28,374 bases of DNA from Ruminococcus sp. AM36-2AA (lineage in GTDB: Bacteria > Bacillota > Clostridia > Lachnospirales > Lachnospiraceae). Position numbers and translations under genes: made by a program. Every line of letters starts with the position of its first letter. Position 1 is the first letter of the stretch. The stretch is from assembly GCF_003461955.1 (NCBI RefSeq), contig NZ_QTYB01000024.1, positions 1-28,374 on the forward strand. Reading direction: 5' to 3'. Shown in pieces: positions 5,143-14,676 of this stretch. Below the pieces are notes generated by a model, which made no database searches, was not told the origin of the DNA, and was given only the letters and a program-made list of their open reading frames with translations.

Positions 5143-6483
5143 ATGTTTAGTTTGGCAAGTAAACACAACGATCCAAATGCCAGCCTGGCATGGAGCGAAC
5201 GTATCGGTTACGGAACAGGCGGATTTGCCTTTAATATGATCAATGGTATCATCGGTTCTTTCCTGACCATTTATTTTACCAGCACAGTAGGACTGAATGC
5301 AGGTATCATTGCAACAATTTTTGCAATATCAAAGGTTTTTGACGGAATCTCAGATGTGATCGTAGGACGTATGGTGGACCGTACAAAATCAAAACTCGGA
5401 AAAGGCCGTTCCTGGCTGTTACGAATGTGTATTCCATTTGGAATCACCACCATGCTGTTGTTTTTTGTACCACAGAATTTTCCGGAAATGGCACAGTATG
5501 TATATATTTTCCTGATGTATAACATTGTAAATGCTGTATGCCTTACCGGAATGCTGGTACCGTATTATTCCATGATCTCACTGATGACAGCAAATCCTTA
5601 TGAGAGAGGATTCCTTGGAAACATCCAGCAGATTTTTCAGACACTTGGAAATGTAGTTGTAAACTCAACATTTGTTACCTTACTTGGAATCTTTACAAGC
5701 AGTACAGAAAACATTTATACACAGAGAGCATTTACGATCACAATGCTGATCTACTGCATCGCAATGATCGTAATTACAATTTTCAGTGTTTTCTCAACAA
5801 AAGAGAGAGTACATTCTGCTGAAAGCGCAGAGGAAGATACTCAGAAATCTGCAAGTTTTGTAGTATTTTTCGTAATTATCATGTACGCAATGGGAAATGT
5901 ATATTACTGTCAGTATGTTCTCTATGATATGGGACAGTACAGCTGGGTATCCAACTCTATTTCCATTGCACAGTTTGCAGTTATGTTTGTAACACCTGCA
6001 TTTATGAAAAAGTTTGGAAAAACAGCTGTTTATGAAGCAGGAATGGTAGTTATGGGACTTGGATTCCTCGGATTCGCTGTTCTTGGCGGTTCCAGTACGA
6101 TCGTGATGATCATCTGCAACGTACTGAAAGGCTGCGGTGTTGGTATGGCCGGCGGTATGGCACTTGGAATGGTTGCAGATACCATTACATACGGAACAAA
6201 GAAAACAGGAATTGATACCGTTGGTCTTGGAAATGCCGGTGTTTCTGCAGCACAGAAGATCGGTCTCGGACTTGGAACAGCTGTATTTGGCTGGGTTCTC
6301 AACGGAGCAGGCTATGACGGATCTCTGGATGCACAGGGTATCGCACAGCCGGAAAGTGTTTCCACAGCAATTAACTTCCTGTACAACTGGCTGCCATTTA
6401 TCATGGTGATCGCTATCTTTGTACTGATGGTAATCCTGTATCATTGCGAGAGAGATTTAAAGAAAATGGAAGCAGCTGAATAA
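5143..6483 (+). CDS. GPH-family (MelB-like) sugar/glycoside:cation symporter
   Basis: This 446-residue protein has about twelve membrane helices. The N-terminal half carries the family features: SERIGYGTGGFAFN near residue 18-31 and the loop DGISDVIVGRMVDRTKSKLG near 66-85, in which Asp residues of MelB coordinate the coupling cation. The family (glycoside-pentoside-hexuronide) imports unmodified oligosaccharides or glycosides with Na+ or H+. It is the first gene of the catabolic cluster and feeds the rhamnosidase, kinase and GH1 enzyme. Import here leaves the sugar unphosphorylated, unlike PTS uptake. A GGAGAAAG site lies about 6 nt before ATG 5143. Confidence 0.92.
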   Translation: MFSLASKHNDPNASLAWSERIGYGTGGFAFNMINGIIGSFLTIYFTSTVGLNAGIIATIFAISKVFDGISDVIVGRMVDRTKSKLGKGRSWLLRMCIPFGITTMLLFFVPQNFPEMAQYVYIFLMYNIVNAVCLTGMLVPYYSMISLMTANPYERGFLGNIQQIFQTLGNVVVNSTFVTLLGIFTSSTENIYTQRAFTITMLIYCIAMIVITIFSVFSTKERVHSAESAEEDTQKSASFVVFFVIIMYAMGNVYYCQYVLYDMGQYSWVSNSISIAQFAVMFVTPAFMKKFGKTAVYEAGMVVMGLGFLGFAVLGGSSTIVMIICNVLKGCGVGMAGGMALGMVADTITYGTKKTGIDTVGLGNAGVSAAQKIGLGLGTAVFGWVLNGAGYDGSLDAQGIAQPESVSTAINFLYNWLPFIMVIAIFVLMVILYHCERDLKKMEAAE

Positions 6484-6507
6484 AGCTGATAAATGAATAA
6501 CTGAGAA

Positions 6508-6567
6508 AAGCAGAGAAAACTGCTTGCGCCTCCGGAAATTAGATAACTATTCTAGTATTTGGAGGCG
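6508..6567 (+). promoter_or_regulatory. Tandem hairpins in the symporter-rhamnosidase gap
   Basis: AAGCAG/CTGCTT (6508-6513 with 6520-6525) is followed by CGCCTCC (6527-6533) paired with GGAGGCG (6561-6567), with a further TAGA/TCTA pairing inside the large loop. Only GTTT follows, so full termination is unlikely. The structure could attenuate or process the transcript between the transporter and the enzymes. The rest of the 131-bp gap holds only the GAGGAGAG ribosome binding site. Confidence 0.45.
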
Positions 6568-13229: not shown

Positions 13230-13275
13230 TATCCGGCAGAGAGATATCCGATTTATATGAGAAAGGACAGAAAAA

Positions 13276-14676
13276 ATGTTTCCCAAGAATTTTTTATGGG
13301 GTGGCGCAGTAGCTGCCAATCAGTGTGAAGGTGCATACAACGAGGACGGCAAAGGACTTTCCATCCAGGATGTCCTTCCTCACGGGATCAAAGGCCCGAG
13401 GACGGAAGCACCCACAGAAGACAATATGAAGCTGGTAGGAATTGATTTTTACCACCATTACAAAGAAGATATCAAGCTGTTTGCAGAGATGGGATTTAAG
13501 GTATTCCGTACTTCCATTGCCTGGAGCAGGATATTCCCGAAGGGGGATGAGGAAACTCCCAATGAGGCAGGCCTTAAGTTCTATGATGATCTGTTTGACG
13601 AGTGCAGAAAATACGGGATCGAGCCCCTGGTAACCTTATCTCATTATGAGACTCCGCTTTATCTTGCAGAGCATTATGACGGCTGGGTAAACCGTGATCT
13701 CATCGGATTTTATAAACGGTATGTGACTACAGTTTTCAACCGTTATAAAGATAAGGTAAAATACTGGCTCACATTTAATGAGATCAACTCCATCCTGGAA
13801 TCTCCATTTATGAGCGGCGGGATCAATACGCCGAAAGAAAAACTTTCCCAGAGTGATCTTTACCAGGCAGTTCACCATGAGCTTGTAGCCAGCGCCTGGG
13901 CGACCAAGATCGGTCATGAGATCAATCCGGATTTCAAGATCGGCTGTATGATCTTAAGTATGCCGGTATATCCGCTGACACCTGATCCCTCGGATGTTCT
14001 TGCTGCCATGGAACAGGATCACAAGAACATGATGTTCGCAGATGTCCATGTCCGCGGCTGCTATCCGGGATATGCGAAACGTTATATGCGGGAAAACGGC
14101 ATCAGCATTTCTGTGACGGATGAGGATATGGAAATCCTGAAAAACACCGTAGACTTTGTTTCCTTCAGTTATTATGTCAGTGTCTGTGCCACAGCAGATC
14201 CGGAAAAAAATGTCCGGGGAGAGGGAAATCTTCTGGGCGGTGTGCCAAACCCGTATCTGAAAGCCAGCGACTGGGGCTGGCAGATCGATCCGAAGGGACT
14301 TCGCTATATTCTGAACACACTCTGGAACCGCTACCAGAAACCACTGTTTATCGTGGAGAATGGTCTTGGTGCGTTTGATCAGCTGATTCAGGGTGCAGAT
14401 GGCGAGATGACCGTAGAAGACGATTACCGCATCGCTTATCTCAGAGATCACATCCGCCAGATGGAAGAGGCTGTCATGGATGGCGTGGATCTGATGGGAT
14501 ACACCACCTGGGGATGCATCGACCTTGTCAGCGCATCCACGGCAGAGCTTCGCAAACGTTACGGATTCATCTACGTGGACCGCAACGATGACGGAAGCGG
14601 AACTATGAAGCGTTATAAGAAAAAGAGTTTCTACTGGTATAAGCATGTGATTGAGACCAATGGACAGGAACTATAG
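13276..14676 (+). CDS. GH1 6-phospho-beta-glucosidase
   Basis: This 466-residue enzyme carries the GH1 signatures: [16 protein letters not shown] at 6-21, the acid/base Glu169 in TFNEINS and the nucleophile Glu361 in IVENG. Near the C terminus Ser419, Lys427 and Tyr429 fall in the [17 protein letters not shown] loop, the pattern that binds the 6-phosphate in the BglA/LacG-type phospho-glycosidases. That favours phosphorylated beta-glucosides over free ones. No PTS gene is visible, which makes the ROK kinase the likely source of the phosphate. The cleavage would release glucose 6-phosphate plus a sugar or aglycone. The gene starts 46 nt after the reductase behind AGAAAGGA and ends at a strong bidirectional terminator. 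Confidence 0.92.

Follow-up and report, generated by a model that had tools for sequence, protein, structure and literature searches.

We examined a stretch of 28,374 nucleotides (positions 1 to 28,374 of contig NZ_QTYB01000024.1 from Ruminococcus sp. AM36-2AA, Lachnospiraceae; hereafter the window), which carries a cassette of six co-directional genes on the + strand between positions 5143 and 14676. In order, the genes encode a GPH-type symporter, a GH78 alpha-L-rhamnosidase, a hydrolase of the metallo-beta-lactamase (MBL) fold, a BglK-like ROK sugar kinase, an OYE/4Fe-4S/FAD ene-reductase and a GH1 6-phospho-beta-glucosidase. This list, with its common direction, had been put forward in a first-pass annotation of the DNA, and was borne out by Pfam and NCBIfam scans. 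None of the six genes encodes a component of the phosphotransferase system (PTS), again as the annotation had it. The gaps between successive genes are 131, 1, -4, 12 and 46 bp; the ATGA-type overlaps by which the annotation had seen the genes coupled thus reduce to a single ATGA overlap at the MBL-ROK junction, the other four junctions having none.

The rhamnosidase (6615-9413, + strand) contains five rhamnosidase Pfam domains, Bac_rhamnosid6H at 337 bits and four others, all above cut-off, which places it in GH78; its closest solved structure is 6gsz. The motifs DCPQRDERLGW and TTIWERW, which we take to hold the catalytic Glu residues, are identical in two other cassette copies (L005 and L011). 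No signal peptide was seen on inspection by eye. At the C end, about 93 residues (window positions ~9132-9410) extend past the last Pfam domain. The GH1 enzyme (13276-14676, + strand) scored above the cut-offs of two 6-phospho-beta-glucosidase models, NF007158 (666 against 639 bits) and NF007356 (660 against 623 bits), and its top solved relative is 4ipl (758 bits). The Ser-x7-Lys-x-Tyr phosphate loop reported in the annotation was recovered as SxSTAExxKRYG from residue 419; both this loop and the two catalytic Glu motifs are kept in all six copies compared. For the kinase (10281-11270, + strand), BglK was the top NCBIfam model at 196.6 bits against an equivalog cut-off of 550 bits, and the glucokinase subfamily model was also matched below its cut-off (135.5 against 260.35 bits). 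The first solved relative of the kinase is 4htl, named a beta-glucoside kinase, and the second is 5nck, an N-acetylmannosamine kinase.

The ene-reductase gene (11283-13229, + strand) encodes a protein of 648 amino acids with matches to Pfam Oxidored_FMN (210 bits) and Pyr_redox_2 (92.8 bits). Its closest solved relatives are 1ps9, a 2,4-dienoyl-CoA reductase, and 6qkg, named NCR, presumably 2-naphthoyl-CoA reductase. Orthologues were surveyed at 97 loci, made up of the best 80 of 141 relatives and 17 from 397 Lachnospiraceae-level genomes. Two of these loci, L107 and L071, were taken to be the same contig, giving 96 distinct loci, and neither falls in any counted group; the orthologues of three genomes (G226, G154 and G037) lie outside the 97, that of G037 having been read later as L131. 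As controls we used 21 paralogue loci, which were the next full-length rows of the ranking and not a random draw. The orthologues, all at least 63% identical, are clearly set apart, no further full-length match exceeding 53%. Among the 397 genomes sampled, 27 contain an orthologue (at least 63% identity over at least 69% of the length), and three further genomes (G137, G078 and G321) contain orthologue fragments of 69-81% identity.

The Fe-S cysteines C349, C352, C355 and C367 are present in all 98 sequences (the window plus the 97 loci, two of which are the same contig). W180, which we take to correspond to the catalytic Tyr of FadH, is Trp in every one of the 98 orthologue sequences and also in all 21 paralogues, and was therefore dropped as a marker of the orthologue group. 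Three enzymes with the same domain order, BaiCD, BilR and mycofactocin OYE 2, were also dropped as identities: the scores of 404.7, 400.8 and 420.7 bits (roughly 400-420) are about half the respective cut-offs of 825, 750 and 793.15 bits. The arrangement of an OYE-like FMN domain, four Fe-S cysteines and an FAD/NAD domain in ~650-665 amino acids is that of FldZ, a comparison made by layout; FldZ has 665 amino acids and reduces cinnamate and p-coumarate but hardly caffeate (PMC5882074). The cassette reductase differs from FldZ in that its gene sits in glycoside operons.

The MBL-fold hydrolase (9415-10284, + strand, the start being taken as the ATG at 9415 rather than the TTG at 9394) matches Pfam Lactamase_B at 64.6 bits and carries an HxHxDH motif. 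Residues H64, H66, D68, H69, H158, D177 and H218 are invariant across 34 sequences; if these His and Asp residues are metal ligands, as we assume, the predicted metal site is apparently complete. A Foldseek search with the structure model (predicted local distance difference test score, pLDDT, 94.9) returned many general MBL-fold enzymes, none of them decisive, and sequence searches likewise named no substrate. The 95%-identity cluster of the protein holds 919 member sequences. Twenty neighbourhoods were read among 25 matches, namely 17 together with L056, L005 and L091; L132, where the MBL frame was unrecognised, the matches in G128, G230 and G273, and a second match in G157 were left aside. 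A GH78 or GH106-like gene lies in seven of the 20 (L005, L056, L091, L131, L133, L135 and L136), and both a ROK and a GH1 gene in five (L005, L056, L091, L131 and L144). At L144 the ROK-GH1 pair is accompanied by GPH and MBL genes, the kinase being only 35% identical, and no match to the OYE enzyme or to a rhamnosidase was seen there.

The symporter (5143-6483, + strand, 446 amino acids) matches Pfam MFS_2 at 228.6 bits, well above cut-off. Alignment with the copies of Blautia schinkii MSK.6.26 (L056) and Blautia luti (L001) shows the window protein to be 27 residues shorter where its central loop ends, an in-frame difference of 81 bp. The gap lies at window positions 5850-5856, and the corresponding stretch in L056 is flanked by a 7-bp direct repeat; either a true deletion or an assembly join would account for it. 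With the NCBIfam GPH model (cut-off 231.35 bits) the window copy scored 227.2 bits, and the L056 and L001 copies 251.1 and 250.6 bits.

The full set of six genes was found in the window, in the two Blautia loci L001 and L056, and at L005 and L011. L076 contains five of the six, the symporter being missing from the stretch available, and L091 and L131, which belong to one genus, contain the full set with a GH106-like enzyme standing for GH78. Gene order is shuffled between lineages, and co-directionality is common to all. The annotation had counted a lack of conserved linkage of the reductase and hydrolase with the rhamnosidase among the outcomes that would refute its proposal; that check was run and brought no refutation, the set recurring in shuffled order in about four lineages. 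A profile of the GH106-like enzyme finds 5mqm/5mwk, which we take to be GH106 structures, at 1.3e-5 over the C-terminal part only. Against NCBIfam AlphaRhamBT4145 the L091 copy gave 1.5e-10 and 39.8 bits with a cut-off of 1300; the L019 copy, scored against a GH106 cut-off of 29 bits, reached 14.4 bits, so that both copies tested fall short of the GH106 cut-offs. The tie to GH106 is thus a distant one, and the place of the enzyme in lieu of GH78 is more telling.

Neighbour calls at these loci were made by tblastn with score cut-offs set by us, and some are distant (for example, the GH78 call at L022, 30% identical and on the opposite strand); open reading frames without a match were judged by eye save where a family scan is given. 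A rhamnosidase lies within 8 kb of the reductase at 19 of the 97 orthologue loci (17 GH78-type and two GH106-like) and at none of the 21 paralogue loci (Fisher p = 0.023). Over the same distance, GPH symporters were found at 13 orthologue loci, CE6 carboxylesterases at 11, MBL genes at nine and ROK genes at seven; the corresponding paralogue counts were zero for GH78, GH106-like, GPH, CE6 and ROK, and one for MBL. Any glycoside-type neighbour was present at 25 of 97 orthologue loci versus one of 21 paralogue loci (p = 0.041); the orthologue loci are not independent, several of them being close pairs, and Poisson values computed from them should not be read literally. In eight orthologue-bearing genomes PF17389 has 26 matches in 26.5 Mb, about one per Mb, from which about one would be expected in the 1.12 Mb of orthologue flank, where 17 GH78-type genes were observed.

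Genes of rhamnose catabolism and esterases also lie next to or near the reductase. A rhaB-rhaA-rhaD run leads directly into the orthologue at L020 (6377-11944), rhaD does so at L014, and at L073 rhaB-rhaD is divergent from it. At the 11 loci with a CE6 (COesterase-type) gene, an unclassified glycosidase-like protein is found in all 11, a GPH symporter in nine and a GH78-type gene in seven. The glycosidase-like protein (L003, 6911-8128, and relatives) has ~405 amino acids, shows Asn-Glu-Trp and Thr-Glu motifs by eye and has no Pfam match above cut-off. A SASA-type protein lies within the L005 set, and a BD-FAE-type protein follows the OYE gene in L131. A different setting, with a LysR2- and/or OFA4-type gene, was found at 22 of the 97 loci (LysR2 at 17 and OFA4 at 16, versus 0 and 1 of the 21 controls). 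The one transporter tested, that of L021, reached 429 bits with the SfMCT monocarboxylate model, whose cut-off is 320. A module of LysR, reductase and monocarboxylate-type transporter recurs at L021 (9014-13185) and similar loci; here the reductase probably works on its own, separately from the glycoside cassettes. The rha, esterase and LysR/transporter settings together suggest a substrate in which rhamnose is combined with an ester and an unsaturated acid.

When 118 co-directional proteins encoded immediately beside the reductase gene at 96 loci were scanned for families in one batch, the counts were 19 for MFS_1, 15 for LysR domains, 12 for MFS_2, five each for GH1 and ROK, and four for a rhamnosidase domain. 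Rarer among them were URO-D (three), a beta-eliminating lyase (three), an Acetyltransf_2 N-acetyltransferase (two) and iron hydrogenase (two); these families may point to metabolism of an aromatic or redox kind.

From the genes present, the families assigned to them, their motifs and their conserved linkage we infer all reactions and the substrate, and propose the following route. The GPH symporter would take the glycoside in. GH78 would trim the terminal L-rhamnose, a step that in 1,6-linked sugars would also free the glucose 6-OH, and the MBL-fold enzyme would hydrolyse an ester or lactone. The BglK-like kinase would then phosphorylate glucose at O6, and GH1 would split the 6-phospho-beta-glucoside into glucose-6-phosphate and aglycone. 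The OYE/Fe-S/FAD enzyme would reduce an alpha,beta-unsaturated group of the released part, with NADH the probable donor; its substrate would most likely be an enoate in free form, for instance a hydroxycinnamic acid, and the reaction would serve the cell as an electron sink. We put the probability of this whole route, with the reductase acting on a released unsaturated part, at roughly 0.55. Its parts differ in strength. The cassette very probably serves plant rhamnosyl-beta-glucosides without a PTS, and it is likely that the kinase acts before the phospho-glucosidase. That the reductase acts on some part set free from the substrate is reasonably probable. Assignment of the MBL-fold protein as an ester or lactone hydrolase falls just short of an even chance, and the identity of the released part as a hydroxycinnamate-like acid is put forward tentatively.

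The sugar branch had been set out in the first-pass annotation (removal of rhamnose, phosphorylation by ROK, cleavage by GH1, no PTS) and is supported by gene context and by conserved linkage in about four lineages. Its further proposal, reduction of the aglycone, survives in part: orthologues enriched near rhamnosidases, with rhaBAD and with esterases argue that the reductase acts on something freed, but the specific case of a flavonoid aglycone is not supported as stated, because the settings with LysR and/or a monocarboxylate-type MFS transporter favour a small alpha,beta-unsaturated acid. The reductase is thus more likely to be an anaerobic 2-enoate (hydroxycinnamate-like) reductase than a flavonoid reductase, as judged from these settings. 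A broader version is more doubtful, namely that it is a widespread gut hydroxycinnamate reductase used both in stand-alone uptake of free acids and in cassettes for acylated rhamnosyl-glucosides (acteoside-like phenylethanoids), in which kinase, phospho-glucosidase, rhamnosidase (GH106-like or GH78) and esterase (MBL-fold or alpha/beta) would be interchangeable modules.

Among the alternatives, the one that survives best is that the enzyme reduces a flavanone, chalcone or flavone, the aglycone of a flavonoid rutinoside or neohesperidoside. Rutin-like diglycosides would suit GH78, kinase and phospho-glucosidase. Lachnospiraceae such as Catenibacillus encode Fcr (flavanone/flavanonol-cleaving) enzymes, for which a role as enoate reductases was once proposed (PMC8398226, PMC11170127). 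Fcr, compared by description only, and the flavone reductase FLR of gut bacteria resemble the proposed route in reducing plant phenolics after deglycosylation. Membership of FLR was dropped because FLR is reported to form a class of its own, distinct from both OYE and EnoR and with a fold like that of WrbA (PMC7862272). The phloretin-hydrolase-type family PF18089 had no match in the five genomes searched and none in the control genomes either, so that its absence carries little weight. With a small acid the better fit to the 22 loci with LysR and/or monocarboxylate-type transporter settings, we regard a flavonoid substrate as unlikely.

It is slightly less likely again that the reductase has merely joined sugar operons, being in itself a free-standing electron sink or an ene-reductase for detoxification, and the pathway proper consisting of the five sugar and hydrolase genes. 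Such a role would fit the 51 of 97 orthologue loci where both the glycoside and the LysR/transporter settings are missing, and L135, L136 and L144, where the rest of the set is partly present without the reductase. Against it, the reductase is repeatedly linked, in shuffled order, to rhamnosidases, rha genes, esterases and GPH symporters, and the rhamnosidase, GPH and CE6 matches are absent from all 21 paralogue controls. A third possibility, that the kinase is a glucokinase for glucose freed elsewhere and GH1 serves phospho-glucosides of a distant PTS, would accord with the sub-cut-off BglK and glucokinase scores and with PTS_EIIC matches in all five genomes searched, but is improbable given that every complete set contains both ROK and GH1, that L144 pairs GH1 with a more distant ROK and shows no PTS-like open reading frame on inspection by eye, and that the top model and the top solved relative of the kinase are both beta-glucoside kinases.

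Several observations weigh against the route we favour. In addition to the 51 loci just mentioned, the flank available totals less than 9 kb at 32 of 97 loci, and the six-gene loci fall partly in related pairs, so that they amount to about four independent cases. Twelve of the 20 MBL neighbourhoods contain neither a rhamnosidase match nor a ROK-GH1 pair, and the MBL enzyme is therefore tied to glycoside use in only part of its family. MBL and CE6 co-occur at none of the 97 loci, but chance alone would lead one to expect only about one such case, and an MBL and an alpha/beta-hydrolase-type protein stand together in L131 (outside the 97) and L137; mutual replacement of MBL and carboxylesterase was thereby weakened as an idea. 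The kinase fails the BglK cut-off, and FldZ, cited as an analogue, hardly accepts caffeate. PTS_EIIA_1 was found in two of the 118 immediate neighbours, and G001, the nearest genome compared, has four PTS_EIIC matches, on contigs other than that of the cassette. A search for rhaA found none in three of four cassette genomes (G001, G037 and G354), other rhamnose routes not having been searched; rhamnose may therefore be a mere cap that is removed and not eaten by the rhaA route. Finally, the window symporter, lacking its 27 residues, may be impaired, as judged by comparison with the full-length L056 and L001 copies.

Divergent from the cassette lies a gene for an AraC-family regulator (3803-4861, - strand; Pfam HTH_18 80.4 bits, AraC_binding 27.3 bits), which has the same position in L001 and L056. 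Its top NCBIfam model is RhaS, at 67.9 bits far under the cut-off of 288. Scans of the window for Rfam families and tRNAs gave no match. The window is Blautia-like: it is 99.6% identical to L056 over 1364-5856 and 99.8% over 5850-15101, and 95.1% identical to L001 over 5850-15101. Downstream of the cassette (14740-15941), a minus-strand AraC-like remnant, recognised by eye, meets at ~15098 a GH5-type gene of which the last ~70% is present. Relative to L056, 2361 bp are absent at this joint, comprising a GPH gene and part of the gene on either side, and a 4-bp repeat is present there. Left of the joint the window is 99.8% like L056; to the right it is 95.9% identical to L001 versus 90.6% to L056. 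On this comparison we read the window around the joint as a mosaic or else a chimeric assembly. Upstream, at 1626-2909, a DUF6198 membrane domain is fused to a cytidylate kinase-like domain. Counted over the whole stretch available, DUF6198-like genes were found at eight of 97 orthologue loci (including L001 and L056), none of 21 controls and two of 18 MBL loci.

In Klebsiella, BglK together with a 6-phospho-beta-glucosidase provides for non-PTS use of beta-glucosides. The cassette shares with that route a ROK kinase and a GH1 phospho-glucosidase, and differs in the added rhamnosidase, MBL hydrolase and ene-reductase and in a kinase that scores below the BglK cut-off. Polyphenol utilisation gene clusters (PGCs) are alike in linking polyphenol genes, with a rhamnosidase domain among those enriched; the main text of their description makes no mention of Blautia, GH78 or a kinase (PMC8824206). 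The annotation had regarded the six-gene combination as undescribed, and we found no description of it in the open-licence literature, searched through listings, openings of abstracts and passages. Each part belongs to a known kind, and the combination appears to be new.

If the proposed route is correct, it would give a genetic handle on the use of rhamnosylated dietary phenolic glycosides by gut Blautia and relatives, following a kinase-dependent, PTS-free logic with a built-in electron sink. It would also suggest a setting in which an MBL-fold family common in metagenomes may act. The conversion of hydroxycinnamates to phenylpropionates is carried out by gut communities, and to our knowledge its enzymes are only partly known; the route would name a testable reductase family for this conversion.

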